Assembly: GCA_033220425.1 (NCBI GenBank)
Contig: CM065651.1
Location: 930,001 to 994,000 of the forward strand
Direction: 5' to 3'
Length of the DNA stretch: 64,000 nt
DNA from: Lepraria neglecta
Lineage: Eukaryota > Ascomycota > Lecanoromycetes > Lecanorales > Stereocaulaceae
The notes below the pieces were generated by a model. That model was not told the DNA's origin. It did no database searches and saw only the letters and a program-made list of their open reading frames with translations. Within the stretch, counting starts at the first letter, position 1, and each line of letters begins with the position of its first letter. This document shows, piece by piece, positions 14,822 to 48,948 of this stretch. Made by a program: the position numbers and the translations under genes.

Positions 14822-15602
14822 CTTCAGATGTATACGCTGTCAGTATAGTGGATACTATCACATCCTTTCCAACGCACCCTGAGTGGACGAAGAAGGTCGC
14901 AAAATACCGCCTTTTCAATGTAACAAGGCTATGTTCATGAATCAAGACTATCGAGGCACAGCCCCGTAGTACGGAGATTGACACCAAAAGTCTTGAATTG
15001 CGCTAGTACTGAGTGCCACAGCGCCAAGCAGACCTCAGACGTCAGCCCTACCGAAAATTTCGCCGCATCTGCTGCTAAATATCGATATTACCGCGCCAAT
15101 TGGGTCAGGAATAGGGCCAATGGGCTCAGGGGGATACGTATCAGATATATAGATAGATAGGGAATTCCGTAGACTGTAGATATCACTGTACCAATGGCTC
15201 CTCGCCGCCGCAGTACAGCAGCTGGGCCTAAATCTCAGCCAATTACTCCACCAAGAAGAAATCCTCGCAGGCACGGTCTAGTCGCGTAGCTGAATGAGTC
15301 GATTACGCTATTAATCGTTAAAAGCCTACGCCGCGTACGTTATTGGCCTCCTATAGCAGCTCTCCCTGCTCTAGAAGAGACCCTAAGCCTTAATATACTC
15401 GCTAAAGATGGCCGTTCAGTCAATTGTTCGATAGCGTAGTGACTCTAAATACTCGCCCTAGCCGAATACGGTATAGAGGAGAAGATAGCAGCTGTATAGG
15501 CTGGACTATATAATATAACGTTAGTTAAAAGGCTGCGGAAGAAGGCTAGAGAACGTAGATTCGACCCTATAGCCTTATCGATTTTAAAAGAAGAAAATAT
15601 AG

Positions 15603-16334
15603 TAGACAAGTGAGTACCTGTAATCTTCACAGAAGATTACCGTAAAAACGGCTATATCTCGCTTATTTTATACTCGATTTAGAAAATTTAAGCCTAATTA
15701 GAAAGCCCTCTTTTTATAGTATATTTTACATATATAAAGCTAAACCCTAACCCTAATATATCGAAAGTTATTAAGGGTTAAATATTTGAGTGCTCCGGAG
15801 GCACTTCGGGGGTGACTGCGGTGGTAGCTTCAGGGAACTCCGCAGGCAAAAACATGTTTTTGAAGCTTTCCTTAGCCAAATTTCAACTAAATTTCAAAAA
15901 TCGAACGGCGTCGGAAAGCGCATGCTTGGTTCCAAAACTCATGAAATTATCTCGGTATCATATAACGTATGTGGCGCTGCGAAGAAGTTGCGGTGCGCAT
16001 TCAACTTTTGATGTTCCAGGGTCCGGGGGCGCCAAGCTCAATGCTTATGGCGAAAACGCTTCTTTTGGTTATAACTTTTGCGTAAGTAGACTTATTTTGA
16101 AAATTTTGACGGTATTAGAAAGCGTATACTTGGTTCCAAAACTTATGAAATCATCTCGATATCATATGACGTATGTGGCGCGGGGAAGTAGTGCGAAGAA
16201 GTTGCGATACGAATTCAACTTTTGGTAGTTGAAGGCGCTAGCCGAGAGAGGAAGTGCAGAATATAGGGCCAATCTGATTGGCTACAAGTGCGGAATTGCT
16301 CCGAAAGTCCTCATAATCTATTATTAGAAGAAAG
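15603..16334 (+). mobile_element. Monomer-built repeat, copy 1 (732 bp), inserted in Tc1
   Basis: A 732-bp insertion flanked by a 6-bp duplication ATATAG (15597-15602 and 16335-16340) that interrupts the Tc1 transposase frame. It begins near ACAAGTGAGT, has a hairpin at 15620-15640 (9-bp arms GTAATCTTC and GAAGATTAC), and contains two tandem monomers of about 240 bp, each carrying AAAGCGCATRCTTGGTTCC and a GAAGAAGTTGCG block. It ends ATTAGAAGAAAG. No inverted terminal repeats and no coding frame of a known family are seen. The second copy (19867-38253) has three monomers. The class is unknown; a SINE-like or otherwise TIR-less element is possible. Confidence 0.75.
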
Positions 16335-17370: not shown

Positions 17371-17378
17371 TTCGGCCC

Positions 17379-17757
17379 CCAATCAGTTATTTCTGGGAGC
17401 GTTTCGGTCTGAATACAAGCCCTATACGGCTTTATAGGCACGGCTCCTCAATTAGTTATTTCTGGAAGCATTTCGATCTAGATACAAGCCCTATACGGCT
17501 TTATAGGCACGGCTCCTCAATTAGTTATTTCTGGGAGCGTTTCGGTCTAAATACAAGCCCTATACGGCTTTATAGGCACGGCTCCTCAATTAGTTATTTC
17601 TGGGAGCATTTCGGTCTAGATACAAGCCCTATACGGCTTTGTAGGCACGGCTCCTCAATCAGTTATTTCTAGGAGCATTTCGGTCTGAATACAAGCCCTA
17701 TACGGTTTTATAGGCACGGCTCCTCAATTAGTTATATCTAGGAGCATTTCAGTCTGG
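17379..17757 (+). repeat. 69-bp minisatellite inside the TRIM (5-6 units)
   Basis: CGGCTCCTCA recurs at 17441, 17510, 17579, 17648 and 17717, exactly 69 bp apart. Each unit carries CAGTTATTTCTGGGAGC and TACAAGCCCTATACGG with few changes. More diverged partial units follow to about 17.85 kb. Confidence 0.92.
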
Positions 17758-17973
17758 ATACAGGGGAGATAAATTCTCAGGCCTACGACGACTACTCAAG
17801 CCCTATACAGGCACAGCTCCTTAGTCAGTTGCTACTAAGAGTATTTCGATCCGGATACAGGGGAGACATATGGATTCTCAGGACTATCAACGACCTCTCG
17901 GACACCGACAAATGTTTTGGGTCCAGGATTGAGGGGAGCGCTAGCAGGGATATATTTCTAGCATCGAGGGGAG

Positions 17974-19866: not shown

Positions 19867-19971
19867 ATACAAGTAAGTGCCCGTAATCTTCACAGAAGAT
19901 TACCGTAAAAACGGCTATATCTCGCTTATTTTATACTCGATATAGGAAATTTAAGCGGAATTAGAAAGCTA

Positions 19972-20071
19972 CGTCGGCAAAATCGAACGTGGCCCGAACG
20001 TGGCCCCAGACGCCCGGCGGGCGCCCGGGGCCACACGGGCGCCTCACCCAGAAACCGGTCCGACGTGCGTC
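19972..20071 (+). repeat. Terminus E1 of the 17.4-kb element
   Basis: 100 bp, about 72% GC, about 96% identical to the reverse complement of 38895-38994. It keeps many CpA and TpG while the DNA just inside is saturated by RIP. Confidence 0.9.
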
Positions 20072-20163
20072 TCTAGATTATAATTACTAGTACGAATTAG
20101 CTTCGAGCCTTAGAGGTGTTATTTGCTATAGACTACTATCTTACCAATTTTGCGATGTTCTAT

Positions 20164-20276
20164 AGTTCGATTACGTTCGATAGCAGTTAGTATTAAGACG
20201 AATTTACGTGGTTCGACTACGGTTCGATAATGTTCGAAAACTATAGTTCGACTACGGTTCGATAACGTTCGAAAAC
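20164..20276. repeat. TTCGA motif cluster, left end of element 1
   Basis: At least eight TTCGA cores in 113 bp, several as GTTCGATAACGTTCGA-like pairs. The same pairs recur at every gene border in this element. Confidence 0.85.
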
Positions 20277-20339
20277 CATCACTAAAACAACTGATACGCT
20301 ATTTTATAGATTGATACGAATGAATAAATACTATAATAA

Positions 20340-22690
20340 AGTCTATCTGCTAGTCGCGCAAATGATTCCAAAAGTCTATAGAACCCTCTCCTCGCTACCT
20401 TTCTATCCTATACCCTATTATCGTCGTCTTCTAGCCTTATAAATACCCGGTTCCTAGCTTTCTAAGTTCTCTTGAGGAACTTCGCGTACTTATTATTATT
20501 CGTTAGAGGCTACTCTAACTCAGCGTCCTCTACTACCCTATACTATATTATATAATATAGGTCGAACTCTTGCCCGCGGAATTCGTTCTATCCTATAGTA
20601 TATATATATATAACTCTTGCCTATATAACTCCTAATATACTACTACGTAGTTTATACTGCGCTAGGAGCTTCCCTTATCGATATCGCTAGGGCGGGGAGA
20701 GTCGGAAGAGAGGGGTATAGTATAGGCGCTAGTCGTAGCTTTCTAGGCTAAGGGTTGATATAGTAAGGATATATCTAAATCTAGTGTTATAGTCTCTTCG
20801 TCGGACTCTAGAAGATTGTTAACTCTATTATCCTATAGACTAGAAGTATCTATTATAGCCTCTGCGTCTTCCGATCCTAGTTTACTAGTAAGTACCTTCT
20901 TATTTAGATAATAAGTAGTTAACTTCTATCTCTTACTACTTATTAATATCTATAATTTCTTAATATAGTCGTATATATCTAAGTATTTATAATTAGCTTA
21001 GTCCTATATAAGTACTATCCTAGCGGTTTATCTTCGACCTTTAGACCCTTAAAGTTAATAGTTCGCTTTTATCTACCCTCCTATTCCCTAATTATATTAA
21101 AGACTAAAGTAGTAATAAAATATACTATAGCTGGACGAAGAGGAGTAAAGAGATTATATATAACGGATAAAGATCTAAGGCTAAGATATCTATCGCAAAA
21201 GAAGACCTTAATAATCGTATATAAGATTATATTAGTAAGGAACTTCCTGCGTCCTCAGGTTTTAGGATCCTAGATAGTAATACGGGTTATTAGTTAATAA
21301 AGTAGGTGACTAGGTTATTAATATACCTTTCTATCGTAATAGTTCTTTAATAGGAACGTATTATATAAAAGAAGTTAAGCGACTAGTACCTACGGTTGTA
21401 TCGCTCGATAGAACTTGTATTCGGATGCTATAATAATCCTGACCTTTGATATAGTATAGCTTCGAAATGACCCGACACAATTAAGTAACTAGTAGTCTTG
21501 TTATACTCGATTACAAAGATAGATAAGGAGAGATAGGGTAGAATCTATATATCCTTCGTACTTCGAAGTCTTTAGGTTATATATTAATATCTCTCTATAT
21601 AGTTATACTACTTTAGATCAAGACTTTATAATAGGTCTATACCTCGGCTATTATACTATTAGCCTAGCTGGGATTCTTTTCGGGCTAAATAGTCGAGTAT
21701 CAACCCCTACTACCCGTCAAGATTATAGCCTATATATAGTAGGTTGCTTTCTATATAACTTTATAATACCTAGCTAAGGAGTATCTATATTGGCGTCGAA
21801 GGAGGCTACCCTATAGTAGGCTAGATAGCTCTTCCTATACTTAATGGTCTTCGGCGCTATTACCGATATTTATAGTATATAGACGCTAACGACGATATCC
21901 GTTTAAGGTAGAAGATATAGCGGACCTTAAGATTGACGAGACTCTTCCGCTTAGGGAACTAGGTAGACGAAGGCTTAAGGAGTAATAGGGGTTCACTATC
22001 GTCCGATACTATACTTTATTAGTTATACTATCCGCGGTATTATAATAGACTTACTCTTAAGCGAATTCGTTTGGGTTAGAGTATATCTACTTCTATTTCC
22101 TCTTCCTCCGCTTCTCTAGAGTATTTACCTCCCTCGCCTACCGAATATTTATCGTTATATTCCTCGTCGTACGTCTCTCGGCGATATTTAGTATAGCGTT
22201 TAGAGAGGGATAGCTCATTATCTAATAGGTCGTCGAGGTTAGATAGTAACTGCGTGCTAGCTCTAGTCGCCCTGAATAACTAGATGGATTTATTGTTGCC
22301 GTTAACCAGCCTATAGGGTTTAGATATCTACAGATAATATTAATAATCATCCTATTAGAGATATAAACTAGTAGTGATATATATATAGTTCTATACCCTC
22401 TGTAGTAGATTCGTAGGCCTAGACTAAAACCTGGATATTATAACCCCAGTAGCTATAGCTCCTCGATATATCGTGAGATAGTTAATAGTAGTATATATAT
22501 ATAATGTACGCGAGAGAATATAATCGAGATTAAAGGGAATAAATAGAGTAGTAATCGGCTAAATACTATAACTTATAGATATAAAGAAAGACGCAGGAAA
22601 GCTAGATAGACGGTTTAATTTAAGGGGCGCAGCCGCTAGTTAATTCAAGGGCAGGCTTCTGTTGATTTCGGGATATAGACGCGTTGTTTT
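20340..22690 (+). pseudogene. RIPed coding-like DNA, unrecognised, plus strand
   Basis: One plus-strand reading stays open over long stretches if RIP-type stops are ignored, most clearly from 21.1 to 22.5 kb (for example ELGRRRLKEQQGF near 21.96 kb). I do not recognise the family. It lies between motif clusters at 20.16 and 22.70 kb, which suggests a separate gene of the large transposon. Confidence 0.4.
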
Positions 22691-22701
22691 AGTAATTTCC
22701 C

Positions 22702-22730
22702 TGTTCGAAGATCGTTCGACTCCGTTCGAT
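22702..22730. repeat. TTCGA motif cluster between genes of element 1
   Basis: Three TTCGA cores (CTGTTCGAAG, CGTTCGACTC, CGTTCGATTA) separate the two plus-strand coding-like blocks. Confidence 0.75.
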
Positions 22731-22739
22731 TAGGTAGGT

Positions 22740-23900
22740 TATACTTAACTTCGCTAGTACGGTTTAAAGCGTATACTTTTCGCGTTTTCGCTACGATCCT
22801 ATTAGAATATCGTTAGGACCTGCAAAACTTGATACTATACTACTTTAATCCTTATTATCGCGTTTATAACTCTAGAAACTTCTTCTAAATAAGCTATATA
22901 GAGCTCTAAATTCTCGGCGAGATAGAAATAAAAGGATTCCCGTACGCTATAAGGCGGCAGGCGTAGTAAGACTCACTGAGATAGATGACCTACTATAGTC
23001 CTTATTAGACTAGTGCCCCTAATCCGAAAGATAAATACCCGAATAAACGGTGGATAGAGAGGCGGCAATAGTATCTTAGTTAATCGCTTCTCCTTCTTTA
23101 TTATTAGCTACCTAGTAGCTCTTTATAATCCGATCTTTATTAACGCCTATAGCTACTAATCGACCGCTATAAGACCCACGCCGGGTAGTATCTCGATACG
23201 AATATAGCTACTATTATCGACGATAAATTGGAGGCTAACCTATATAAAGAGATTCTACGCGGAGTCGGAGATTCTGTTATCCTTAGTAATATAGTCGTAG
23301 AGTATTAGATTAACGCTACGGATACTACCTAGTAGGTTAAATATCTAGTATACTAACTCGAAATTGCAAAAGCGGAGGAGCAAACGTAGTAAACTAGATT
23401 ACTTGCAGCCAACGGTAACCCCTACTATATTCATTCGGAAGCTACTACTCGGGAGTCAACTCTAGGCGCGTAGGCGTCCTAGAGTCTTTATAGTTTTCTT
23501 AGGATAATATTATAGCCTTCGCCCTGGAATGATAATCTAATAGAAATAATCGACCTGGCTATCGGTAGCCGGCCTATTCCTTAAAGTACTAGGGGGCTTC
23601 CTTGCCGAGGGTATTATATAATTAGGATAGTTAAGTAACAAAGGTTATCTCGAAAGGAATTTTCCTTAGGTGATAGCGGAAGACAGGCACTAATATTATA
23701 ATATAGTAGCTGGTATAGTAATCTTTTAAAGGCCTAGTAAGCGTTAAGTAGGGAGCTTAGATCTCTTCCCGATATCTCTTATGTCTTAAGGAAGGTTATC
23801 TTTAGAGTTCCTATTAATTCTAATCTTATATTATCTATAGTATCTATTTCTAAGGCCTTACAACTCTCTTATTAAGATTTTATAGATACTTTTATAACTT
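22740..23900 (+). pseudogene. RIPed coding-like DNA, unrecognised, plus strand
   Basis: Plus-strand reading with long open stretches (for example DTNIATIIDDKLEANLYKEI near 23.2 kb). No domain is recognised. It follows the motif cluster at 22.7 kb. It may be an accessory gene of the transposon or a continuation of the previous block. Confidence 0.35.
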
Positions 23901-23999
23901 AGTATATAGATAGAATCCTAATTATTAATCTTAATAAAGGCGGGTTCAAGGTAGTATATAAGAATGTATATTCGAGATAGTCTTAATACCTCTTTCGTT

Positions 24000-25130
24000 T
24001 CCGTAGGTATTAACTACCTATAGCTTCTTATAACTCGTCTCTATAAGCTATAGTAGTATTATACGGATTCCGTCGCTTCTTAGCCAGGGTTTACTATATC
24101 GCTACTACCTCTTTCTCTATACTATCCTATCTGCTTTCTCTTTCTTGGATTTATTTCCTACTATTATCTAGCTTATCGGTACTATCTTCGGGACTATAGC
24201 GTATCGAGTAGACGTCAAAAGTTAACCGTGTATATCCGCTTGAATATATTTCTACTAATATACCCCTCTATAACCGTTTATTTGTAATCTCAAGCGCCTT
24301 CCCCCTAACCGGCTTATAGAGAATCCTCTCTATAGCCTTATCAAATTAGATATCCTCTACTAATATACTAATAAACCGGTCGAATTAAATATTATCGATC
24401 TCGATATTCGAAGGACCTCGATTTAAAGGCAGTACTAAATCCTGCGGCCGGTATATCGTTATTATATTATGGCCTTTTCTTTGAACGTAGACTATAATAT
24501 TACTAAAAATAGGTGGCGATAGAGTACTTTATTGCCGCTTGGCTTGCTCCCTATTTACTACTACTATTAGTAGCTCCTCCTTTATAGTCTTTTGCCTCTT
24601 CCTATTATTATTATACTTTTGAGCCTAATAAGTCAGATACTCTTCCCTCTACACACAGTCTATACCCTTGAAAACCTCCGGAAATTGCTTATATACAATA
24701 TCAAATACGGGTTATAGACTCTACTTAGTAGCGATATTATTGATCTTGTCGCGTATAGTACCGTATCTTCTAACCTCCGTATCCAGGGCGGTATATATAT
24801 CTCTATAGAGTTTCTGGTCGATGTCGAGACCTGTATATATATACCGAACCGACTAGGACTTGATATTAAGCTCTCGTAATATCGCTTCTCTCGAGGGCTC
24901 CGAGGACTATATAGCGTTCGTTCGACTTAGCTATACCTTTTATTAGCCTAAAGGTTAGCCTAATAGGGTTATAGTTTTCTAACTTACGGTACTAGTATCT
25001 AGATTATTTATTATCCAAGATAGAACTTTAATAGGGACGGAGGATATTGATACGAGATCGTATTTATTAGTAGGGCGGGATTATTAGTTTAAAACGCTAA
25101 AAATATCTAAGGGGCCGAATACTAACGAGC
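24000..25130 (-). pseudogene. RIPed coding-like DNA, unrecognised, minus strand
   Basis: The minus-strand reading is open for long stretches (for example LTFDVYSIRYSPEDSTDKL near 24.2 kb). It lies downstream of the transposase and is separated from it by the motif cluster at 25.15 kb. No family is recognised. Confidence 0.38.
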
Positions 25131-25149
25131 GCTAAGTATATTTGAAATC

Positions 25150-25176
25150 ATTCGAAAACGCTCGATAACGCTCGAT
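25150..25176. repeat. TTCGA/CTCGA motif cluster between minus-strand genes
   Basis: TTCGAAAACGCTCGATAACG with a further CTCGA follows; it separates the transposase 3' end from the next minus-strand block. Confidence 0.8.
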
Positions 25177-25199
25177 TTTGGTTAAAAGATTTCGCGTGC

Positions 25200-28100
25200 G
25201 TCTCTACTATCTAGTTACCTTTTTATCTTTAGAACGCTTAGCTACTCGTTTAGCCGCCTAAGACTCTACCTTTAAGAACCCTATATCGTATAATGTGTTA
25301 AATTGATCGAAGTCGATATAGTTGTTAATATAGTAGGTTGGCCCGTCTGTCAACCCTCGAGGGATAATATATACTATACGAATAATACTCGGAAGACTAT
25401 AGAATCGTCGGCTTGTATAACTATAACCGTTTATAGCGTCCGGTAAACGATACTCCTCTATCTCTACTATACTATATATAGGATCTATACGCCTACCAGA
25501 TCTGAATTTTAGAGTTTGGATTATAGCTCCGGTATACGAGGGATGCCTACCCTTAGTATTTTGTCGACCAAGATCTATTACTATTAAGATTATAAGTAAC
25601 TTGCCGACTAGCCTCCTATCCTATAGATATAGTATATAATTCCGACTCTTACTTCCTATCTCGTATTCCTATACCTAAATATAATCCTGTCGCTATTCGC
25701 CCTAAGCCTACCAGTTCGGGGTGCAGCGAGTATAGTCTTCTATAACGCGATTAGGATTAATAGGGTCGCCTATTTTTTTCTATAAAGTAATAGAGCCGTA
25801 TACTTTTATAGGGCAAGAAGCCGCCTATAATAGATCTTTATTTCTGTCTATATTAGTATCCCTATTAGTAGTAGTAAACGTCTAATCCGAGCGTTCTTAC
25901 TTAATAAAATTGATTAACGTAGTATAAAGATTCGGGATTCCGTATTAATAGGCTACGGTCGATACGTATATCTAATAGTTGATACTCAATCGAAGGCTCT
26001 GTATACGTTGTTCCTAGGCCTCGTCTAGCGGCTATTATAGCTCTCTAAGATCCTTTACGCCTGCGGCTAGGTTGCGGATACTTCTTACGGAGTATTCTAA
26101 CTCTAAAAGACCCCTGCCCGCCTTATATCGTTTAATATCTAGTATTATCGTAAGGTTTAAATATCGAATATTGGCTAGGATAATCTGCTTCTCGAATCCC
26201 TTTCGCTTATTTGTCCGCCTAAAGTAGTCCTTTATAAGATTAATATAATTAGCTTTACTAATACCTATTAAGTACCTAGAAGTATATCCAAATTTACGGA
26301 TATAATTCGTATAGTATATTATAGAATACTACTTGGGAAAGTCGAAATTCTTATTAGGCCTAAACCTACGGAAGGCCTCTTTACTCTTGTCTCATTGAGT
26401 AAGGTAATATTCTATATACTTTAGAGACTTGCCCGTGTAGGAATTATATTGAGCCAGAGTCATAAAGTTTATAATCCCACGCGTAGTATACAGGACGTTG
26501 CTATTCTTGGCTACTAGAAGCGGTGTAATTACCGTAACTAGTTAGCGGAGTACCATTTTATGTTCGCTCCCTGTCTACTACTTAACGTCGCTATAGCTAG
26601 CGAAATGTTTTAGGCCCGCAAACGGGGGTATACGGCGGAATAACTGGTCTAGTTAGACTATTGCGGGCGTCTCAAGGATGTCTCTTACGCTCCTACTTCC
26701 GGGCCTCTTTCGACTAGGTTTCACAGCGGCCCTAATAGCCTTATCTATCTATCTAAGAAGATAATCACGACCGGCGACGCCTTTGAGCAGTTGGTATAGA
26801 ATATCGACTATTATATATTAGTGGATATTAATATAGGGAAGCTGCTAGGCGAAATTGTCGAAGGTATAAATACGTTCGGGATAGTCCTCCGGTATCCATT
26901 CCGGTATAAGCTGTAATCGACGTTGCTACTACATCTAATAGTAATCTCGTAACTTCCATCCTTGTTTTTTCCCTAACCGTCTAAATTCTTCTCGTAATAT
27001 ATAGTAAATAGGGTATTGCTATAAAGACCTGACCTCGGTAATAAGGACTTGTTTCTTATAATTAGCTATAATTCTAGCGAGTATTGGATATCCTTAGCGG
27101 ACTTTCTTATCGGTATATATAATAGGTATCCCACGGCGGCTATACCGTCTAATAGCTAAGATAAAACGAATATTAGATATATAAACGCTGGTATATAGAT
27201 ATACTATATACTTACGCTCCGTAATAATATCTATTATTGTATAATATACCTCTACCTTAATATAGAGACCTATCTCCTTCGGGATTAGTATTAAAGCGAT
27301 TAGGATATTACTAGGCCGGCTTCTTTATCTTCGCGTTTCATTATTAAGGTTACTAATAGTTAAGTAAATAGGCTATACTAATAAATCGCCGGAGAGATTA
27401 GTAAGTTAGATTTTATCGCTGGCTAGGAGAACCGGGATTACTATAGTATTTTCAGGGAGCTGCTCTTGTATGAACTACTACTAGTCTATAGTATATATCT
27501 CGGTATAGAGGCGAGAGTCCTCGTCCTTAGAGCTATCCTAGCCTAGCTAGTTTATAATAAACCTTCGGACTAGTATATATAATAGATTTCCTATAAAAGG
27601 ACGGTAACTAAGAAGAAACTCGATTACCTTAGTAATATCTTAATAGTATATAGAATATCCTCTTACTGCGACCTATTCGATATTTGAGTTAATAGTAATT
27701 ACCTATTCTATCTATTCGTTATTTAAAATACTATCTTGAATTTTAGATAGAAGCTCCCTCTAAGACTCGCTATTCTAAAAGGTAGCGTACTACTATAGAG
27801 GATAAAGTCGGTTATCCCCGAAGAAACCGTTAACTCCGCCTTTAGTATATTTAATTTTAGCTAACTATTCTATAAACGCGAAGTTAGTCTTATCGCGAAA
27901 CGGTGAGAAGTTCGAATACCGAGCGCTACAAGTATCTTCAGCCTGCGAGTAGTATATTAGAGGCTTACCGGCCCTACTACCCGTAATATCGTAAGAAGTC
28001 TTCTCTTTAATACCTACGGCTACCGGAAGGATATCTGCCTTAATATAATTCGACCCGCTAGAGGCGTTAAGCCTAGGATTTTTATATCCTAGCGTATTAT

Positions 28101-28420
28101 TGGCCTCTATAGGATCTTCCGGTCCTCTATCCGTCCTAATCTTATATTATATACTCTATTCTCTAGCGCCTACCGCTATATTTAGACTTAACTCTATCTT
28201 ATCTATTATTCTCTATAGCTATCTTTTAACCTCTTCGATAGTCTCGGCGGCTATATAGATTCTCCTCCGAGGCGGTTCTCTAGGTATTATATCTTTACCG
28301 TGCCGCTTTCGGTATCTATTTATATAGTTCGAGAAGCTATAATATATCTTAGTAATAACGCCGCAGGCCTTATAGACCTATAGAGCTATCCTAGGTCTAT
28401 AAGGTAAGATAAAATATATA
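25200..28420 (-). pseudogene. Plavaka-type transposase, RIP-dead
   Basis: On the minus strand, from the N-terminus: a C2H2-like finger remnant near 28.35 kb (ACGVITK...RKRH); the core PVLLASDKIWLTNLSGD with LTISNLNNETRR near 27.35-27.43 kb; the INIHQYIIVDILYQLLKG block near 26.8 kb; FDFPKWYSIIYYTNYIRKFG with an RRTNKRKG segment near 26.2-26.35 kb; and the C-terminal DYTRCTPNWQAQGEQR near 25.7 kb and YINNYIDFDQFNTLYD near 25.3 kb. This order is diagnostic of the Plavaka group of EnSpm/CACTA transposases in fungi. Stops are spread through it, mainly former Trp and Gln codons. It is head to head with the helicase at 28.7 kb. Confidence 0.88.
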
Positions 28421-28502
28421 AAGGGAATTAATTAAGTAGTAAAGAGTTACTATATACTACTTAAAGGCGTAGAAGATTCCTTAATATTAGAAGGGGTTAG
28501 AA

Positions 28503-28533
28503 AACGCTCGATAGTGTTCGAAAGCGTTCGAAA
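28503..28533. repeat. TTCGA motif cluster between transposase and helicase
   Basis: ACGCTCGATAGTGTTCGAAA followed by GCGTTCGAAA, in the divergent intergenic space of element 1. Confidence 0.85.
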
Positions 28534-28699
28534 TTTTCATCTACGCCAAGCCTAATCGGGCGTCGTCGGGGTTAAACTCCGTAGTAGTCTAATACCGAAA
28601 TAGTCTTTAAATTAATAACCTAACTTATTAATATAGCCTCGCGACTTGCAGAAATATTAATTATTATAGCTCTAATAATAATAACGCTTCTAAGCTATC

Positions 28700-31600
28700 T
28701 AAAAAAGCTTATAGTAGAAAAGCTAATTATTTAATACTATAGATAAACGTTCTAGAGTAAAGGAATATAAATTAGGTCGAAGTTCGAGGATTATATATAT
28801 AGGGATTAGAATATATTCACTTATAGTATAGCGATTATATATACCTATAGGGTCTTTTAGCGTAGCGTACCTAGTTAAATTCGCGTCATTTTATTCCTTT
28901 ATCCTTAAATCTATAACTATTTCATCCTATCTATTCTACTTTATTCTACTTTATTCTATCTTACCTTTATAACCGTAATTATACCTTTTAATCCTCGATT
29001 TAACTACGCTAATATATTAGCTAGTAATCTTATAAATAAAGAAATAATAACTCCCTTTAACCTTAGCTTAGATAACTATAAGATAATAAAAGATATTATA
29101 GTAGACTACTTAATCGCGAATAATCTCCTAAGTATTAATCTAAAAGATAAGGGGTTATTAAAACTACTTAATAGTCTAAAACTAGTAATCGTTATAGATA
29201 TCGAGAGTAAACTCGGCGCTACTATATTTATAGAGGTCCCGCCCGCCTATATTTTATTCTAGCTATATATCCTAGCAAAGAAGGTAAAGTAAGGTAAGAA
29301 GTATAAGATAACTCCCGGTAAGCGTAGCGTCGATAAAAGCTTAGAGACCTTAGAGATAAAGAGATAACGAACCTTAGAGGCCTCTAATATAAAGACCGAA
29401 GGGTCTACGAGCGGCGCGTTTAGTTACTAAGACTCGAAAGCTAATATCCTATCAAGGCTACCCCTACTACCTTTAGACCCTCGACTTATTAATAATATAC
29501 TCCTTTACTATAAACGGGAAGATAATAGTAGTATTAAAATATTTAATACTATATAGGATATTCTTCTAGATAATATTACTTATAGCGTGAAGCTACTCTT
29601 TTAGTATACGAAACTCGAAGTATATAGATAACTATTAACGAGTAGTATTATCTTTAAAGAGCTAGACGATATACTAATAGGCTAGTTATATCGAAATAAT
29701 TGTAAGTAACTAGTAGTAGTAAACAATAATCAATTATATTTCTATACGTGTCTTTTATTATAGTTAAGGGATCGGAGCTATAAGTATCTAGAATTTGTAG
29801 TTAAATCGAATCCTACTTCTAGTAAGCTGCCCGCTAAATATAATACTATTATATTATAGCTAACGCTCGAGCTACTAGGTTCGAATCCTCTACTATATCT
29901 ATTTAGCGCGCCTAACGGAAGGTAACCCCTACCTCTACCAAGACTAGATAACTATTAAATAAAACCGTATACAAGTATCGGAGCGAATACCGATAGTAGG
30001 GCCTCTTAGAAGGTATCCGCTAGATAAGGTATATACTAATAGAGTAATAGGCCGTGTCTTTAGCGATAAACTACTACTGGTACTATAGTCGATTTCCTAG
30101 TCGAAAGCAAAATCTCCTCTCCCTCCGAAGATCGGTCCCCCTTTATCGTATACTCTATTATCTAAGTATCTCAAGGAAATCGAAGACGATACTTTAATTA
30201 TATAGGGGATATCTTCGCTCTTACTAGAGGAGTACTAGCTAGGTAATAAAAGGTAGTCTATTAATATCTTAGATAAAGGAGACGAAGATAAAGGTAAAGA
30301 TATAGATAAGGAGGAAGGGTAGTAAGATAAATAGTAATATAAGAAGAGGGGAGAGGATTATAAAGATAATAATAAGGAGGAGGAGGATCTAAATACTTTA
30401 ATTAATAATAATAACGATAAGGACGACGAAAAGGGAGCTATATTATTAAGCCTATAAGCTCTTCCTTACTCCTCTAGCTTCTAAAGAGCTACTAATATAG
30501 AGACTCTAGGAAGTAAGATATCGTCTATTCTACCCTTTGCGAGTATATAAATAAAGAATCTCTTAAGGGTATATATATATTATATCTAATACCTTATAAG
30601 ATCTTAAAACCTAAGGAGCGCAAAAACCTGAAGGCAGATAAATCGAAGATGGTCACGCCGAGCTTCACTTTTCCGGGTATATTAATTGATCCGTATTACT
30701 TTCAGTTTCTAATAGTATATATATTACTATAGTTATATAATAGTACGGGGGACGGGGGTATCCTCGCAGATAAGATAGGGTTCGGTAAGGTTAGTAATCA
30801 CGTCTTCGTTTAATAATGTTTAAAACCGTTTAACAGATCTAACTTTTAGTACTAGACTCTAATAATCTACCTATTAATTATAACCTAGCGGTGGATTAAT
30901 TAAAATAGAGTTAATATTAGGGACGTACGCAAAAGTAAAAACCCCTAATATCTATAACACGGTATTAATGGCCTATACCCAAGTCAAGTATAGTAGCTAA
31001 TCCAATATAGCTATATCAAGGGGAGTATTATAATCAAATTTGATATATAGTATAGCCCAAATATAATCTTCGCACCGGCTACTCTACTACTAACGTAGAA
31101 AATAGAGTTCTCTAAATAGTACGATCCGAAAGCCGACGAGCGGGTGGATCTTGGTCTAGTCGTCGGCTATAGGTCGGCTAGAGATAATAGTCTTATCTAG
31201 TAATACTTCTAGGAAGGTCCTAGAGGTAAGAAGATCCGATATAAAGGGAACGTCTTTAAGATAGACTACAAACTAGAAGAGCGTCTATCTTAGGAGTCGC
31301 AGAGATAGATTATTCTAATAATAGTTAGGAGCTACGATATAAACGTTAAGTAGAAATTCAAGATCAACTAACTATACCGGGAAATACCTAAAGGTAAAAG
31401 GAGAGAGATAATAAGGTACTAGATAGTATAGAGGCTATCTATAGGAAGAACCTTCGATAACGAATTTACTACTACTAAAACCCAGGGTAGCGGGATAATA
31501 GGTCTACTGCGTAATATTAAACAGGAATCCTATAACTTTCATTATACGTTTATAGCGATATTAGGGACGCTATAGAATAAATTACCCTCGGATATAAGCG

Positions 31601-32800
31601 GTATTATAAGTGTATTACGATACCTATATAGGTATACTTAGGCTGCGTATAAGACTCTTAGATTTAGTATACTAGATAACTTTAAGGAGATTATTAACGT
31701 ATATAATAATATAGCTAAGAGGAACCTAACGATATCTAGCGCTATAGCCCTATTTGCGGAGAAGAGGAATAAACTAATCGTTTTCCTTCGGGATATTATA
31801 ATTATACGCACGGAGACGTCGAGATGGCTAAATAATGAACCGATGTTATATTTACTATTACACGATACTAAGCACGTATAATTCCAATTTCTAACTCAGC
31901 TCTAACTAGATCTTAATCTAGTAGATACCGAGGTTAAGAGGAAACTTAATCAATAGGTCTATAACTAAGGTATCTAATTAACTACTAAGTATAATATAAT
32001 ATTCTTTACCTTATCAGCGAAGATATATATAATTATAGATATACCGGGCCTCGCCAAGCTTCTTACAAACCCCGGATTCAATAATAATCTAATATAGGCG
32101 TCCTTTAAGAAAAAATACTTGAAAACTTATATAGAGATCAAGGCGGATAATCTATACTATAAGAATATTTCTATACTTGAGAAATATAATCCTAAATAGG
32201 ATAAGATTTGGAAGACTATCGAGAATCTTGGCTATATATAGTTTAAGTACGCTAGCGATATAGAGCGGAAACGAGTACCTAAGAAGCTCGTTATTATGTC
32301 TAATCTACTCTTAGTAGCCTATATAACGGTAAAGGTAAGCTCTACCCCTATCGTACCCTTTAATATATAAATCCTGCTAGTACTTCGTCTTAAAGGCTTC
32401 GCTAACTACGGAGTAGTAGCTTTAGGATAAGCTCGAGGAGATAGGCTCGAACCTAATTATAAAGTTCGTATATATAGGGTATAGCGTTAATAAGCGCCAG
32501 GATATTATCAAGGGATTTCAAGAGGACCCCGGCTTCGAAGACCTAAACTCAGATATCCTAGTACTTCTATATAGATTATTTAATAAGGGATATACTATAA
32601 CCCGAGCGAAGAAAATAATTCTAATAGATATAACCTAGCTAGATAATATTGAAGACTAGGTGGTCAAGCGAATCTATCGTATCGGGTCGTTGAACGCGAT
32701 GTATATATCTATATAGTATACAAATGTTCCGATTAATATAATTATATTTAGTATACAGGAGAAGCGAAGATAGGGGCGGGAGGGGACGGTTAGAAGTTAG
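28700..32800 (+). pseudogene. SNF2-type helicase, RIP-dead
   Basis: Long plus-strand reading. A poorly conserved N-terminal region runs to about 30.6 kb and includes an acidic, purine-rich part at 30.28-30.45 kb. The ATPase domain begins with Walker A GGILADKIGFGK (30753-30788; the family has GGILADEMGLGKT). ALFAEKRNKLIVFLRD lies near 31.75 kb. The C-terminal helicase half has DIPGLAKLL near 32.04 kb, NKRQDIIKGFQEDPGFED near 32.49 kb, and motif VI KRIYRIGS at 32665-32688 (family QRIHRIGQ). It is assigned to the SNF2 superfamily; its role in the transposon is unknown. Stops are numerous and of RIP type. Confidence 0.82.
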
Positions 32801-34914
32801 GGGGATTAAGATATACTAGTTCGAAAGCTTACTACGGTAAAGGAGTAGAAACGAAAAGACGAAGAGGACTAGAGCTATACTTAGGCAATACGATATATAA
32901 TATATATAGGCCTCTAATAGGTACTAGGCCTATTATAATAACGGCTATAGTCTTCGAGAGTAGTTCTTCTTTCTCAAATAAACGAATTAAGTATATTTCT
33001 ACTACTATTACATCGAGCTATAGGTAGCTATATATATATTCAATAACGTAAAACCGTTCGGAAGCCTCCCTACTTAAGCCTGATATTCTATAGCTTTATA
33101 ACGTTAGAAAGCTACTAAAAATCAGTTAAATTATATTAGTATAGTGTTTCTTCTTTACCGAGGTACTAGTACTAATACTAACTATCGAACTTACCTTGCG
33201 TAGAGCGCTCCGTAGATTTAGTAACAAACTACCCTTTACGCACTAACTCTTATTTAGCTATATATAATGATTCTTTAGGAGGGGATTAATATATTCGAGG
33301 ATGCTTTTAGCCCTAGTCTTATACGCCCTCTCCTACTTCTTCCGGGGGTACCTATAGGGTTATCGAATATCTATAGTCTAAAGGTTTTAATACTACTAAA
33401 GAAGAAGACCTTTAGAATAGTAAGAATAGGTCCTATAGAGAACGATATAAGTATCTTAAGAACCTTAAGTACCTGATAATCTGCCTGGAAGAGATGGAAT
33501 GATTATTCAAGGGTTATTTAAAGAAGATTATACCTGAAAAGAAGACTCGGCTTTACGAAGTATCTATAGACTATACTATTAGATACACGGTTGAACTTAC
33601 TTATAAATTATACTCTAGATAAGTTTCTAGCACGATTCAGCTATCTATTACGTGGTAATCACAAGTAGTTAGTCGTATAGGTGTCTCAGTCTGATCCTAT
33701 AAGCAATACCTATATTGCCCTTATTTTATTACGAGATACCGATATATACTAAGGAGTCAGCTGTAGGAGAAGCGGCTGTGGAGTTCCTAGGGTCCTTAGA
33801 CTAAACTACCTATAAACTTGCTATAAACGAGAACCTTTACTAACCCCCACCTAGTAGCGGCTATAATATCGGCCCTAGCTCCTTGAACGCGCAGGGCAAC
33901 CACGAAGCTTTAACTCGCTACTTTCCAGCCGTTAACACCGATAACTATAGTTATTTAGATAGCTCTCAGTCTAACACTAGTGGTAATTTGCCCTCTACTC
34001 ACGCTAGTAACGCTATAGCTTGTACTACTAAAGCTTACCGCGCTCGTGCTAAAGCTCTCGTACTATTATTAATTCCGAAATTAATACGACCCTAGCTAGT
34101 AACGCGGCTATAGTAGATAACCTTCCTACTTCCTCTATTAAATTGCGAGTACCCTAAATCTTTAATTAGCCTTAAGAGAACATGGCCCTTAATATAAGTC
34201 TCCTCCCTATTTATCCTTATATCGCTCTTTTACTAACTATAGTATATATATAGCGCGCAGAATCCTTACTATAGGCCTCCTCTAACCTCTTCTACGCTAG
34301 TTCGGTAAAAGAACTTACTCTTTCGGAAGTAATAGTAACTAAGACTACTACTAAAAGATTCATTTGTCCCTTCCCTATAGCTATACTACCAACCTATAAT
34401 AACTTACAAGCTACTACGGAGTGCGGTAGTTTATAATATATCTAGACTACTTTAGGTCTTATAGGAAGAGATCCCGGATACTACTTCCCTAGATACCTTA
34501 TAAAAGAAGGTATAAATATATTTATCTTAGAGGAAGTACCGCTAAGGGGATATATTATAATCCTAGCGATCGACCTAATCCTTTAAAACTAGTATTATAT
34601 ACTTCTATAATATTGGGGAGCGTTCGAAAACCTGCTACTAGAGCCTAATATACCGAGATTCAACTACCGTTCGAAAGCGTTCGATAATACCTAAATTAGG
34701 CTAGTATCAAAAGCTGTGCTTAGCGCTATATATAGCCGAACGCTGTTAGGGGAGAGGCACGTGATTTGCTTAGCTAAGTACCTAGATTATTAGTAGTACT
34801 TTCTAGCTAGAAAATTCAATAAGAAATAACACTACCGAAATTAGTATAAACGTCTCTATATAGTATTTAGTCTTTAACGCGTCTTAAAGTAAATAATCAC
34901 TTGGTCTACCTTAT
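32800..34914 (+). other. Element 1 DNA 3' of the helicase, with a low-RIP patch
   Basis: 32.8-33.6 kb is coding-like in the plus strand but unrecognised. 33.64-34.08 kb keeps CpA/TpG and has a 70-codon open stretch with a Ser/Asn/Thr-rich composition and no known domain. The motif cluster at 34.62 kb closes the block. Confidence 0.4.
34621..34686. repeat. TTCGA motif cluster before the second helicase copy
   Basis: CGTTCGAAAACC at 34621 and CGTTCGAAAGCGTTCGATAA at 34669, with further half-sites between. Confidence 0.8.
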
Positions 34915-34959
34915 CTAACATCTATAACGATCCTATAAGGTCCTCTACCGCCGACTTAA

Positions 34960-36700
34960 TACCCGTTCCTATCTTACCTTTATAACCGTAATTATACCTT
35001 TTAATCCTTAATTTAACTACGCTAATATATTAGCTAGTAATCTTATAAATAAAGAAATAATATCCCTTTAACCTTAGCTTAGATAACTATAAGATAATAA
35101 AAGATATTATAGTAGACTACTTAAGAGGATCCATCTTGGGAGTCGCAGAGGTAGATTATCGTAATAACCGTTAGTAGCTACTCTATATACGTCGAGCAAA
35201 GATTTAAGGTCACCGAAATATATTAGGGAATATCTATAGGCAAGAAGAGAGAGGTATAGATATTCCGGCTAATATCAAGGCTATCTATAGGAAGAACCTT
35301 TAATAACGAATTTATTACTACTAAAACCTATAGTAGCGGGATAATAGGTTTACTACGTAGGATAAAAAAACAAGCCTACAAGTTTCAATATACATTCGTA
35401 GCTATATCCGGGACCCTGTAGAATAAATTACCGTCGGATATAAGTAGTATAATAAGTATATTATAATACCTATATAAGGATACTTAGTCTAAATATAGGA
35501 CTCTTATATTCGGCTTGCTAAAGAATTTCAACGATATTATTAAGGTATATAATAATATAGCCAAGGGAAGCTCGACTATAAGTAATACTATTCCCTAGTT
35601 TAAGGAGAAGAGAGATAAACTAATTATTTTCCTTCCGTATATTATAATTATATATATAGAGACTTCTAGATAGATAAACAACGAACCGATATTATATTTA
35701 CCCTTATACTATACTAAGCACGTATAATTCTAGTTTCTAATTTAGCTCTAACTAGATCTTATATTAGTAGATACCGAGAGTAAGAGGAAACTTAAATAAT
35801 AGGTCTAGGACTAAGGTATTAAATCTACTAATAAGTATAACGATATATTTTTCATCTTATCAGCGAAGATACGCATAATTATAGATATACCGGGCCTAGC
35901 TAAGCTTCTTACAACCCCTAATATCGATATTGATCTAACGTGAGACGTTCAAGAAAAAATACTTAGAAACACGTATAAGGATTAAGGTAGATAACCTATA
36001 CTATAAAAATATTTCTATACTTAGTAAATATAATCCTGAATAGGATAGGATTTGGGAGACTATATAGAATCTTAACTATATATAGTTCAAACGCGCTGGC
36101 AATAAGGAGCGTATACAAGTATCTAAGAAGCTTGTAATTATATTAAACCTACCCTTAGTAGCCTATATAAAGGTAAAGGTAAGCTTTACCCCCATCGTAC
36201 CCTTTAAAGTATAAATCCTACTAGTACTTCGTCTTAAAGGCTTCGCTAACTACTAAGTAGTAGCTTTAGGATAATCTCGAGGAGGTAGGCTCGAATCTAA
36301 TCGTGAAATTCGTATATATTGGGTATACCATCGATAAGCGCCAGGATATTATTTATAGATTTCAAGAAAATCCCGGTTTCGAAGAGCTATATTTAGATAT
36401 CCTGGTACTTCTATCTTATCTATTTAGTAAGGAATATACTATAACCCGAGCAAAGGAAACTAATTCTAATAGATATAAGCTAGCTGGATAATATTAAAGA
36501 CTAGGCTATAAAGCGAATCTATCGTATCCGTTCCTTAGACGAGACGTATATATCTATATAGTATACGGATATTAGAATTAATATAATTATATTTAGTATA
36601 TAGGAGAAGCGAAGATAGAGATAGAAGGGGATAGTTAGATACTACGAAGAGTAGAATATACTAGTTCGAAAGCTATATTTAGCCAAGAAGTTAGCACGAG
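34960..36700 (+). pseudogene. Second, partial SNF2 helicase copy in element 1
   Basis: 34.97-35.12 kb repeats DNA from 28.96-29.11 kb (the 5' part of the first copy) and then jumps at about 35.12 kb to DNA matching 31.28 kb onward, so the region with Walker A is deleted. The C-terminal half is well kept, including YTIDKRQDIIYRFQENPGFE at about 36.33-36.39 kb and a degraded motif VI near 36.5 kb. It is an internally deleted duplicate, also RIPed. The two copies differ widely. Confidence 0.8.
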
Positions 36701-36829
36701 TAGAGAAAGAATCTGCGTACTTATTATAAGACTAGATAGAAAAGAAGGAGATAGTTACTACTTAGTAGACGACTAATATTAGATCCTAAGGCTAAACGTT
36801 AGTTACTTATTTAATACCGTTTGACAACG

Positions 36830-37100
36830 GTTAATAAAAAGAGTGCGTAACTGAGGCTAAGTGTCTATTTATTCGATATAGTTCGATAACGTTCGATAAA
36901 TAGAGTGCGCAACTGAGGCTAAGCGTCTATTTATTCGATATAGTTCGATAACGTTTAATAAATAGAGTGCGCAACTGAGGCTAAGCGTCTATTTATTCGA
37001 TATAGTTCGATAACGTTCGATAAATAGAGTGCGCAGCTAAGGCTAAGCGTCTATTTACTTATTCGATACCGTTCGACAACGTTCGATAGATAGAATGCGC
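36830..37100 (+). repeat. 62-bp tandem array with TTCGA motifs, right end of element 1
   Basis: TAGAGTGCGC recurs at 36901, 36963 and 37025 (62 bp apart), with flanking units at about 36839 and 37091. Each unit holds a GTTCGATAACGTTCGATA pair and CAACTGAGGCTAAG. The units keep CpA/TpG. They could be subterminal transposase-binding sites. Confidence 0.9.
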
Positions 37101-37227
37101 AACATTCGATTTAATATTGAATCTTCATCTATAATACTTACTACGTAATCTAGATGAACTACGTATTAACTCTCTAGTAAATATCGTTGTATTATATACT
37201 CGTAACATCTATTATAAGAATAATTCA

Positions 37228-37337
37228 GTCTAGTTAAGGGCATTTTGCGCCCCGGGCCACCTTCGGGCGTATTTGGAGCTTGGGGCCTGTCGCGCTTTGG
37301 CCCGGCGCTGCTGGGGCCGGGTTCGAATTTGCCGACG
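37228..37337 (-). repeat. Terminus E2 of the 17.4-kb element
   Basis: GC-rich end whose reverse complement starts CGTCGGCAAATTCGAACCC and matches the left end of the mini-element at 38423 over about 48 bp. It shares only the first 16 or so bases with E1, so the element has unlike ends. Confidence 0.85.
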
Positions 37338-38253
37338 TATATATTATAGTATATTATATATATATAAAGCTAAGCCTTAATCCTAATAGGGCAAAAGTTA
37401 TTAAGGATTTAGTATATTAGTACTTCGGGGGCGGCTGCGGGGGTAGCTTTAGGGAACTCCGCAGGCAAAAACATGTTTTTTGAGCTTTCCTTAGCCAAAT
37501 ATTTACCGAATTTCAAAATTCGAACGGCATTAGAAAGCGCATACTTGGTTCCAAAACTCATGAAATCATCTCGATATCGTATAACGTATGTGGCGCGGGG
37601 CATTGCTGCGAAGAAGTTGCGGTGCGTATTCAACTTTTGATATTCTAGGATCCGGGGGCGCCAAGCTCAATGCTTGGTATCTGCCACCGAGCTTGTGCCG
37701 CAAAAACATGGCGAAAACGCTTCTTTTGCTCACAACTTTTGCGTAAGTAGACCGACTTTAAAAATTTTGACGGTATTAGAAAGCGTATATTTGGTTTCAA
37801 AACTTATGAAATCATCTTGATATTATATAATATATATAGTGCGGGGTATTACTGCGAAGAAGTTGCGGTACGCCTTCAACTTTTGATATTCTAGGGTCCG
37901 GGGGACGCCAAGCTTAATACTTGGCATTTACTACCGAGCTACTACCTGTAAAACATAGCGAAAACGCTTCTTTTACTTATAACTATTGCGTAAATAGACC
38001 GATTTTGAAAAATTTGACGGCGTTAGAAAGCGTATACTTAGTTCCAAAACTTATAAAACCATCTTGATATTATATAATATATATAGCGCGGGGAAGTACT
38101 ACGAAGAAGTTGCGATACGTATTTCGATTTTGATATTCTTACTTGGCGCGCTAACCGAAGAAGGCAGTTAGTAGGGGAAGTATAGAGCTAATCTAGTTGG
38201 CTATAAGTGCGGAATTGCTCCGAATATCGCGATAATCTATTATTAGAAGAAAG

Positions 38254-38422: not shown

Positions 38423-38994
38423 CGTCGACAAAATCAAACCCGACCCCAGCACCCCCGGGCCAAAGCGCGAGCTACTTCGGGGGCCCAAGGCGCCCCGGGC
38501 GCCCCTCGGGCCAAGTCACGTGTTTTCAGCCCTATATGATTTTTTTTGATGTTTAATAATCGACCGGAGCACTCGGGAACCCCCCTCTAGAGCAGCCCTG
38601 GGGGTTAACCCCAACGCGGTGCTGGAATCGATCGATTCGGGCGATTTCCTCGCGGGGGTAATGTGCGCAGATGTTGCGACCGCGTTGCGACAGCGTTGCA
38701 ATAGCGGTGCGTGACAGTAGTACGCGATAGCAGTACGCGACAGCGGTACGAGGGTGTAGCAGTGTACGCCCCGTGGGGGTTTGCCAAGGGTAGCTGCAAG
38801 ACTAGTTAGGGGGTTTCCGACGCTATCTTTTACTAATTAAAAGTTGGCCCGGGGCCTGCACGGGGCGCCCTTAGCCGTGATTGGCGTGGCCCCGGACGCA
38901 CGTCGGACCGGTTTCTGGGTAAGGCGCCCGAGCGGCCCCGGGCGCCCGCCGGGCGTCTGGGGCCACGTTCGGGCCACGTTCGATTTTGCCGACG
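38423..38994. mobile_element. 572-bp non-autonomous relative of the 17.4-kb element
   Basis: The left end is E2-type (CGTCGACAAAATC) and the right end E1-type (ending GATTTTGCCGACG), the reverse of the large element, with AG duplicated at 38421-38422 and 38995-38996. Removing it and one AG restores an open monooxygenase frame (HEVSKACW), which proves the borders. The 360-bp interior has no gene. It contains degenerate GCGACAGC/GTACGCGA repeats (38.68-38.75 kb) and a GGGGTTAACCCC palindrome near 38.60 kb. It is little RIPed, unlike its host. It is a deletion derivative that a related transposase must have moved. Confidence 0.88.
38895..38994 (-). repeat. Terminus E1 of the mini-element
   Basis: Reverse complement about 96% identical to 19972-20071 over 100 bp. 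Confidence 0.9.
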
Positions 38995-40400
38995 AGGCTT
39001 GCTAGAGCGAAGAAGAGGGTAAATAGAGTATTATAATTAAAGAGCTGGTCTCTAGTTAAACCTTCGAGGACTTATATAATATCCTTATCTAAGCTACGAG
39101 ATATCTAAATAATTAGAGATGGCCGGATATATAGGAACTCGATAGATTCAAGAGAATAATACTCTATATAGCCAAGTAGAATAATACCGTTGATTTAAAA
39201 GGAAAGTAGATTAGTCTAATAGAGAATAGGTAAGACTATATATATTATCTCTATATATATTCTAATATCTATATTAATTAGCCTATCTAGAGTCTAAACT
39301 TTATCTATAATCTAGCCTATTATTAAAATACTAACGGCGTTTATCCGCTCGCTAACTTGGATCTTATCTACTATAGATACTTTATAAAGAGTATACTCTT
39401 AGGAAGATATTAAGGCTTTCGCTAAAGATCCTAAGAAGCTAATAGTTTATTATAAGGCCAACGAGATAATAATAAATAGTATATTCGGTAAGTAATTACT
39501 TTGTACCGTTAAATAGAGACCTTATAACGTAATATACTAATATCTTAGATATCTATCTATAAGATTCGAGGTTGTAAAAGCGGTTGAAGGCTCGCTATAT
39601 AAATGAAATAAAGTAGATACTATAGAATAATAATCTTGCGGAGATCTTTATATCGAAATATAGTATCGGTTATATAAGACTTATACCTTATCTAGGTTAT
39701 TTAGAAGTAAATACCTCTACTCGTTTAATTAGTATATTACTACTTACTAAAAATAATAGATAATACGCAAAGACAATATAACCGCTATATAAAGCGGAGT
39801 AATAGAGCTTATATAAATAGGCTATATATATAAGAGTGGAGACGAGTATCCTCTCGATATACTTATTTGTACTACCGGTTTTAATACTTCTTATCGACCT
39901 CGCTTCCCTATTATCGGACCCGGTAGTATTAACCTCCAATACGACTAGGTAAACGAACTTAAATCCTATCTGGGAATTGCGACGGCAGGCTTCCCGAACT
40001 ATTATATAACACTTAGACCTTATTCCCCTATTGGAGCTGGCTCCGTAATACCTACGATTAGTAAGTCTTTATACCGCTTAAGAACCAAGAGATAGAGTAG
40101 CAGCCTACTAAATAGTATATCCCCGATCCTTATAGGAACCCAAGTCGACTATATCCTCCAATTCCTCGACTGCTACTAAACCGAACCTATCTACTCCTTC
40201 TACCCCTTCCCTAACGCCGTCTCCGACTTCGTAGCCTATATAACCTACTTTATATCCCGTACCGTCTGGTTCTAAAACTACCGTTCCCCCTTTAAATCAT
40301 TCGCTACTAACAATATACCTAGCCTCTAGCTAGGCAGTACTCTATACTATATAGAAGCGCTTAAAGAGCTACGAGCCGAGGACTAGTATAAGGTATGCTC
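38995..40400 (+). pseudogene. Flavin monooxygenase pseudogene, fragment 3 (C-terminal)
   Basis: The reading continues with SEEEGK near 39.01 kb. Next come ATRYLNN-RWPDI at about 39095-39132 (family ASGYLNxWKWPDIPG) and DLKGK-ISLIENR near 39.19 kb, the degraded NADPH site (family DLKGKxVGLIGNG). The C-terminal blocks are AGFPNYYITLRPYSPIGAGS near 39.99-40.05 kb, DYILQFLDCY near 40.15 kb, SRTVW near 40.26 kb, and SLQLGSTLYYIEAL near 40.33 kb (family PGSxLHYxExL). More than a dozen stops and several drifts occur, mostly of RIP type. This was a host gene, probably in secondary metabolism or ketone oxidation, killed by insertions and RIP. The identification is firm as a family; the substrate is unknown. 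Confidence 0.88.
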
Positions 40401-48940: not shown

Positions 48941-48948
48941 GGGTACTA

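Follow-up and report, generated by a model that had tools for sequence, protein, structure and literature searches.

A probable Plavaka-superfamily transposon with its own end type and a pair of SNF2 genes in Lepraria neglecta

What kind of unit is a block of mutated DNA that holds a transposase together with genes resembling chromatin remodellers: a single mobile element, or an accident of insertion and duplication? We took up this question for positions 19972-37337 (17,366 bp) of a 64,000-nucleotide stretch from the ascomycete Lepraria neglecta (assembly GCA_033220425.1, contig CM065651.1), hereafter the window, which is C6:930001-994000 of a 42.0-Mb genome in 11 contigs (C-numbers denote contigs of this same genome throughout). 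We read the block as very probably a cut-and-paste DNA transposon of the Plavaka superfamily that carries an SNF2 pair and a DUF6532 gene and has been killed by repeat-induced point mutation (RIP). What is new here is a Plavaka element with its own end type and an SNF2 gene pair.

Borders, empty site and copies of the element

The block starts with CGTCGGCAAA at 19972 and ends with TTTGCCGACG at 37337 (outermost letters CGTCGG..CCGACG), has TA on either side as a 2-bp target site duplication, and carries terminal inverted repeats in which 21 of 25 bases pair up when the ends are compared in inverse orientation. Its left flank aligns to 15597-15706 (91.9%) and its right flank to 15714-16046 (83.4%), and because the two flanks, once joined, align as a single piece over 15597-16046 (84.6%), this second copy of the host repeat is a genuine paralogous empty site despite a few differing bases at the junction itself. 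A sequence-only reading of this DNA had already drawn the same borders with their TA flanks, and the inverted ends, the duplication and the empty site bear it out; its further claim that the flanks join exactly as in the repeat at 15603-16334 stands for the empty site as such, with "exactly" being too strong for host-repeat copies that differ by RIP-like changes, by small insertions and deletions, and by those junction bases. The features that define the element are as follows.

19972-37337, no strand: whole transposon, defined by its ends, 2-bp duplication and empty site, with a second both-ended copy at C2:5947752-5972110
19970-19971, no strand: left target site duplication, TA, read in the window
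37338-37339, no strand: right target site duplication, TA, read in the window
19972-19996, plus strand: left terminal inverted repeat, 25 bp, 21/25 against the right one
37313-37337, minus strand: right terminal inverted repeat, 25 bp, 21/25 against the left one
20154-20279, plus strand: left subterminal repeats of the GTTCGATAACGTTCGA type (repeat family D6)
36786-37103, plus strand: right subterminal array, 62-bp unit with the GTTCGATAACGTTCGA motif (repeat families D2, D4 and D6)
15597-16046, plus strand: paralogous empty site of the host repeat, to which the joined flanks align in one piece
38423-38994, minus strand: short copy with the element's ends, 572 bp, duplication CT (from end matches and duplication)

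Within the right array, positions 36834-37103 hold 4.3 copies of the 62-bp period, and motifs resembling GTTCGATAACGTTCGA also occur inside the element at 25138, 28484 and 34658. Subterminal repeats are common to CACTA elements, where they act as extra transposase binding sites. The RIP state of the block is marked (GC content 0.358, TpA/ApT 1.52, (CpA+TpG)/(ApC+GpT) 0.30), the gene-bearing island at 8001-14000 giving 0.71 and 1.19 for the same two indices.

Genome searches with the two ends returned at least 39 matches to the left end (first 101 bp) and at least 35 to the right end (last 122 bp, most of them covering the final 48 bp only), a few in either set being two pieces of one end. Besides the window element, three long copies carry SNF2. 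The copy at C2:5947752-5972110 has both ends, a TA duplication, Plavaka, SNF2, truncated SNF2 and DUF6532, is 92-93% identical to the window element over ~17 kb (85.7% in a 460-bp left-end piece), and holds extra DNA of 6.5 kb and 0.6 kb. The one at C6:1690477-1711022 is ~93% identical over ~15 kb, holds extra DNA of 2 kb and 3.4 kb, and has the right end, the left end not having been found for it. The fourth SNF2-bearing copy, at C8:2.067-2.084 Mb, aligns only as far as window position 36563 and so does not reach the right end; a left-end match of 55 bp is located at C8:2084178-2084232. The C2 copy supplies, from the same genome, what the sequence-only reading had proposed as a check, namely a full copy with both genes between the ends and a 2-bp duplication; the outcome that it had named as refuting, a helicase never found between such ends, is not what we see, as both the C2 copy and the window have SNF2 between both ends. 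Smaller remnants also exist: at the right ends C8:3000352 and C4:373456, the sequence examined retains 0.7 kb and 0.1 kb of the element, respectively.

Pairing the ends by script gave 24 pairs, 20 of them below 1.3 kb, and one further short pair that the script missed (C4:3055449 with C4:3055998-3056045, 597 bp) would bring the short copies to 21. The six that we read (572-633 bp) match the long element at 97-98% in the first 100 bp and at 87.5-93.8% in the last 48 bp, with middles of their own; five show no RIP signature (GC ~0.65-0.67), and the one in the window at 38423-38994 is partly RIPed. RIP has a length limit, which is the likely reason for the short copies that escaped it. Among the eight copies with both ends read, seven have 2-bp duplications (TA in the window, C2 and L007, TT in L002, TC in L003, CC in L004, CT in L008), the exception being L005, flanked by TA and AG. 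Because the duplications also read TT, TC, CC and CT, the insertion target is not restricted to TA; the TA duplication that is a feature of ESTA occurs in only three of the seven matching copies, a pattern that does not fit ESTA. Two further arrangements of ends were seen, a pair 7.1 kb apart at C1:3633975-3641116, of a length between the short and long copies, and a left-end match at C3:3975604-3975702 that lies on the other strand, 7.6 kb from an SNF2 fragment at C3:3983352.

Genes carried by the element

The genes of the element, and one block that abuts the last of them, are as follows.

26773-27762, minus strand: Plavaka transposase domain, RIP-broken (PF18759, E 5.4e-29)
21039-21491, minus strand: DUF6532 domain, RIP-broken (E 1.4e-5 in the window, 1.9e-9 in the C2 copy)
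28956-32935, plus strand: SNF2-like helicase gene, RIP-broken, start uncertain (from sibling copies, PDB search and host SNF2 matches)
35123-36710, plus strand: truncated SNF2 paralogue without motif I, ~79% identical to 31277-32865, present in all four SNF2-bearing copies
34969-35124, plus strand: 156-bp block, 98.7% identical to 28956-29113 near the SNF2 gene start, abutting the truncated paralogue

The transposase scores better still in the siblings (PF18759, E 7.5e-43 in the C2 copy and 9.6e-35 in the C6:1.70 Mb copy), and stretches resembling the first and second D regions of a DDE transposase are readable by eye in some copies, for example L016, whereas the row for L038, probably read in a wrong frame, showed no recognisable Plavaka alignment and was left out. 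In the C(2)C and H(3-4)H motifs the cysteines and histidines seem to have been changed in the way expected of RIP, and a DUF6830 match downstream of Plavaka in the same frame reaches E 0.16 only. A PDB search with the Plavaka protein from C5 returned no match, and an IMG/VR scan with the Plavaka read-through gave 13 stretches that fit the pattern and 0 relatives. DUF6532 has 13 matches genome-wide, which are copies of a few families rather than independent events and do not include the window's own; 10 of the 13 lie within 15 kb of a Plavaka match, against a mean of 0.51 and a maximum of 4 in 5000 random placements (contig C11 left out, length of C7 approximate). An AlphaFold model of DUF6532 had a mean pLDDT (predicted local distance difference test) of 38.4 and was not used.

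The plus-strand gene is identified through its sibling copies as an SNF2 helicase. By eye, motif I is recognised near 30754 and motif III near 31558, and the C-lobe with motif VI spans 32393-32935; a PDB search with that last interval found 1z5z, a Snf2/Rad54 family helicase (E 2e-4), which we take to be the Sulfolobus structure. A Helicase_C lobe with the SNF2 motif VI is present: in the C2 copy the Helicase_C profile scores 23.7 bits (E 5.9e-5), just over its cut-off of 23.5, and 27.3 bits in the genome-wide search, with SNF2-rel_dom at E 0.0082, below its cut-off. When a C-lobe profile built from the four copies was compared with structures, Rad54 was matched at E 6.6e-6 and 1.5e-5 and RAD5 at E 0.002, and the C-lobe likewise matches four intact host SNF2 genes (E 7.7e-6 to 8e-4), the best being a 1325-codon open frame at C1:5742301 whose N-lobe is the PF00176 match C1:5740402. 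An AlphaFold model of the C-lobe (mean pLDDT 38.0) was not used, and an AWS match in the C2 frames was dropped, being 14 residues long and by position inside a nested insert.

The SNF2 genes keep close company with Plavaka in this genome. A tblastn search with the middle of SNF2, in which only the best candidates are scored, gave 13 matches, all within four units that each hold a PF18759 match, and with a longer SNF2 query 13 of 14 matches fell in the same four units, the remaining one being a weak match to the N-lobe of a host SNF2 (E 0.016). Among these candidates, full-length SNF2 matches were found only inside Plavaka units (4/4), each accompanied by a truncated second SNF2. The window and the C2 copy align without a break over 12.6 kb, a collinear stretch that takes in Plavaka and both SNF2 genes. 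Outside the four units, an SNF2 piece at C8:3000913 sits in a right-end remnant.

The second SNF2 paralogue starts downstream of motif I. Across the four copies, identity is 89.6-94.0% between copies within a paralogue and 74.8-78.7% between paralogues, from which we infer that the SNF2 duplication predates the multiplication of the element. Fixed transversions that distinguish the two paralogues number 25, 24 and 48 at codon positions 1, 2 and 3 (p 0.0036, with codon frames assigned by the analyst), and because they concentrate on the third position both paralogues are interpreted as having been coding and constrained before RIP. Set apart from this history is the 156-bp block, near-identical at its two places (98.7%) though the remaining SNF2 paralogue sequence is only ~79% alike; matches to it at the second place are also found in the C2, C6 and C8 copies.

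These results largely sustain the gene content proposed in the sequence-only reading, which had placed a Plavaka transposase on the minus strand, a divergent SNF2-type helicase on the plus strand and further coding-like blocks, one of which proves to be the DUF6532 domain on the minus strand. Where it spoke of SNF2 helicases in the plural, one full SNF2-like gene is present and the second is a truncated paralogue rather than a complete helicase. Its suggested check by profile hidden Markov models came out in part, recovering Plavaka in the window and siblings and Helicase_C in the C2 copy, with no SNF2 found by Pfam in the window copy.

Points against, competing readings and proposed mechanism

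Several observations weigh against reading the block as a Plavaka transposon with SNF2 genes. Pfam detects no SNF2 in the frames of the window copy; genome-wide, PF00176 has 42 matches at E 0.01 with 0 of them in the four SNF2-bearing copies; and the C6 copy gives Helicase_C at E 0.048 only. For the N-lobe, the four-copy profile finds no SNF2 structure in PDB (only an unrelated enzyme, E 0.38), the window sequence as a single PDB query has no match, and a DEAH-type motif II was not recognised by eye in the read-through of the four copies. An SNF2 C-lobe fragment also lies outside the four units (C3:3983352-3983564, 71 codons, 66% identical, E 7e-26). No intact long copy was found among those read, all of which are RIP-broken, and the ends CGTCGGCAAA..TTTGCCGACG are unlike those of PlavakaA and PlavakaB in the part of the published description used here (PMC12730594).

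The alternative that survives best takes the two SNF2 genes to be cargo picked up from the host, as happens with host genes in other large elements, and gives them no part in transposition. SNF2 is indeed a large host family (the 42 PF00176 matches), the second copy is truncated, and SNF2 profile searches around three other Plavaka matches (30 kb at C5:3.42 Mb, 30 kb at C9:64 kb, 10 kb at C3:228 kb) gave none that was convincing (best E 0.21, at C5); but both paralogues occur in 4/4 copies, are older than those copies by the identities given above and show the third-position bias, which argues that the element maintained them as genes. Because they share only 25-41% identity with the SNF2 genes of the host, any capture would not be recent, and overall we consider cargo without function an unlikely account.

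Far less probable is a nested origin, in which an SNF2 repeat was inserted into an unrelated Plavaka element. The extra DNA inside the C2 and C6:1.69 Mb siblings, a DDE_1/Tc5 transposase match in the frames of the C6 copy and the one SNF2 fragment outside the units at C3 speak for it, but the collinearity of window and C2, the presence of both paralogues in all four copies and the lack of full-length SNF2 matches elsewhere among the candidates scored run counter to it. A last reading would make the block a host gene cluster that was duplicated and then RIPed, the origin put forward for X3X3R8 of P. nodorum. A similar layout favours it, since X3X3R8 has SNF2/Rad5-like helicases in tandem, of which the second is incomplete and diverged by 10-20%, followed by a block in reverse (PMC3017866), but with inverted ends, 2-bp duplications, an internal transposase and short copies with the same ends it is hardly credible here, and for the window element it is already refuted by the empty site.

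For the reading that we prefer, a Plavaka transposon dead by RIP, the mechanism would run as follows. By analogy with the DDE superfamily, the transposase would bind the inverted ends and the subterminal GTTCGATAACGTTCGA repeats, excise the element and insert it with a 2-bp stagger, and the short copies of ~0.6 kb could have been moved in trans by the same enzyme. SNF2 proteins move nucleosomes, and the SNF2 protein of the element may have remodelled silenced chromatin on the element, allowing transcription of its genes or access to its ends. Whether this was the function of SNF2, making the silenced chromatin of its own element accessible, we judge to be evenly poised. The truncated SNF2 and DUF6532 were probably accessory DNA-binding or regulatory proteins, which we offer as a guess.

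Relatives, significance and neighbouring observations

Plavaka reportedly received its name in a 2014 PNAS paper on TET/JBP genes and fungal transposons. In the sections of PMC12730594 drawn on here, the elements of Agaricomycotina end in TGT..ACA (PlavakaA) or CATCA..TGATG (PlavakaB), duplicate 2 bp (PlavakaA) or 2 or 3 bp (PlavakaB) of target, and in some PlavakaB carry TET/JBP genes with a proposed role comparable to that inferred for SNF2 here. Our element resembles both in its PF18759 transposase domain and in the 2-bp duplication of 7/8 copies, and differs from them, as far as that description goes, in carrying SNF2 and DUF6532 and in sitting in a strongly RIPed host (PMC12730594). The transposase and the duplication length are the only features that place it in Plavaka, the termini falling outside both described end types. 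Six-frame Pfam scans of the window copy (at E 0.05), of 18.2 kb from the C2 copy and of 17.5 kb from the C6 copy (both at E 0.1) detected no TET/JBP family, though RIP may hide one.

The layout also recalls X3X3R8, which the available portion of its source describes as a 26-kb RIPed multicopy repeat, called an endogenous gene cluster, with a reported ubiquitin-conjugating enzyme (PMC3017866). The likeness, compared by description, is one of layout only (a tandem SNF2 pair with the second incomplete and a block in reverse orientation), whereas the lengths differ (26 kb there, 17,366 bp here) and that portion of the source mentions neither termini nor a Plavaka transposase (PMC3017866). A ubiquitin-conjugating enzyme gave no Pfam match in six frames of the window, C2 and C6 copies, where RIP may again hide one.

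Among other large elements, the En/Spm (CACTA) multi-gene elements of Chondrus, put at 16-20 kb in the part of PMC6431247 used, share the size range, several open reading frames and a related transposase superfamily. The window element is unlike EnSpm/CACTA in lacking CAC..GTG termini and a 3-bp duplication. The Plavaka giant repeats of Amoebidium are similarly long and gene-rich with a Plavaka transposase (flanking there), yet they reach up to 50 kb, form tandem clusters and have tyrosine recombinases, and the word SNF2 is absent from the text of theirs that was available (PMC11244446). The sequence-only reading had called a large Plavaka with SNF2 cargo not well described, and in the open-licence literature searched, with supplements and Repbase outside its scope, we likewise found no SNF2-bearing Plavaka, or Kyakuja with SNF2, described.

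A broader proposal, which we regard as doubtful, is that these copies represent a distinct ascomycete Plavaka lineage, recognisable by end sequences of its own and by a constant complement of genes (transposase, DUF6532, SNF2 remodeller, truncated SNF2) that would open silenced chromatin as a counterpart of the TET/JBP genes, and that X3X3R8 of P. nodorum belongs to it. Chromatin genes that ride on transposons make it possible to test how elements evade silencing, and a constrained SNF2 pair inside Plavaka would be a further, independent case beside TET/JBP in fungi. The analysis also offers a concrete, testable re-reading of RIPed helicase repeats filed as host gene clusters, and gives DUF6532, an uncharacterised domain, a first tentative setting as a transposon accessory gene.

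Further Plavaka and DUF6532 matches were noted apart from this element. A second Plavaka transposase domain lies in the window at 47848-48726 on the minus strand (E 4.1e-19); a scan of two minus-strand frames across 40000-54900 gave no DUF6532 or SNF2 match. The DUF6532 matches at C2:158195, C8:171920 and C10:36307 have weak SNF2 matches (E 0.13-0.36) 3.4-4.1 kb away on the same strand, and those at C2 and C8 have Plavaka matches 10-12 kb off on the opposite strand, which suggests, without proving, that another Plavaka family carries this set of genes too at these loci, notably around C2:158-171 kb and C8:171-183 kb.

Elsewhere in the window, another RIPed repeat forms a large inverted repeat, 4-2909 and 3646-4896 pairing with 54313-51412 and 50713-49489 at 83-90% identity. 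Tandem units of 77 bp stand at 49354-49520 and 56175-56341, ~6.8 kb apart and within a 508-bp direct repeat, and a tandem array at 17373-17762 has 5.7 copies of a 69-bp unit. In the unRIPed island, two adjacent open frames of 370 and 632 amino acids at 9007-12120 on the minus strand resemble, by eye, an RNA-dependent RNA polymerase.

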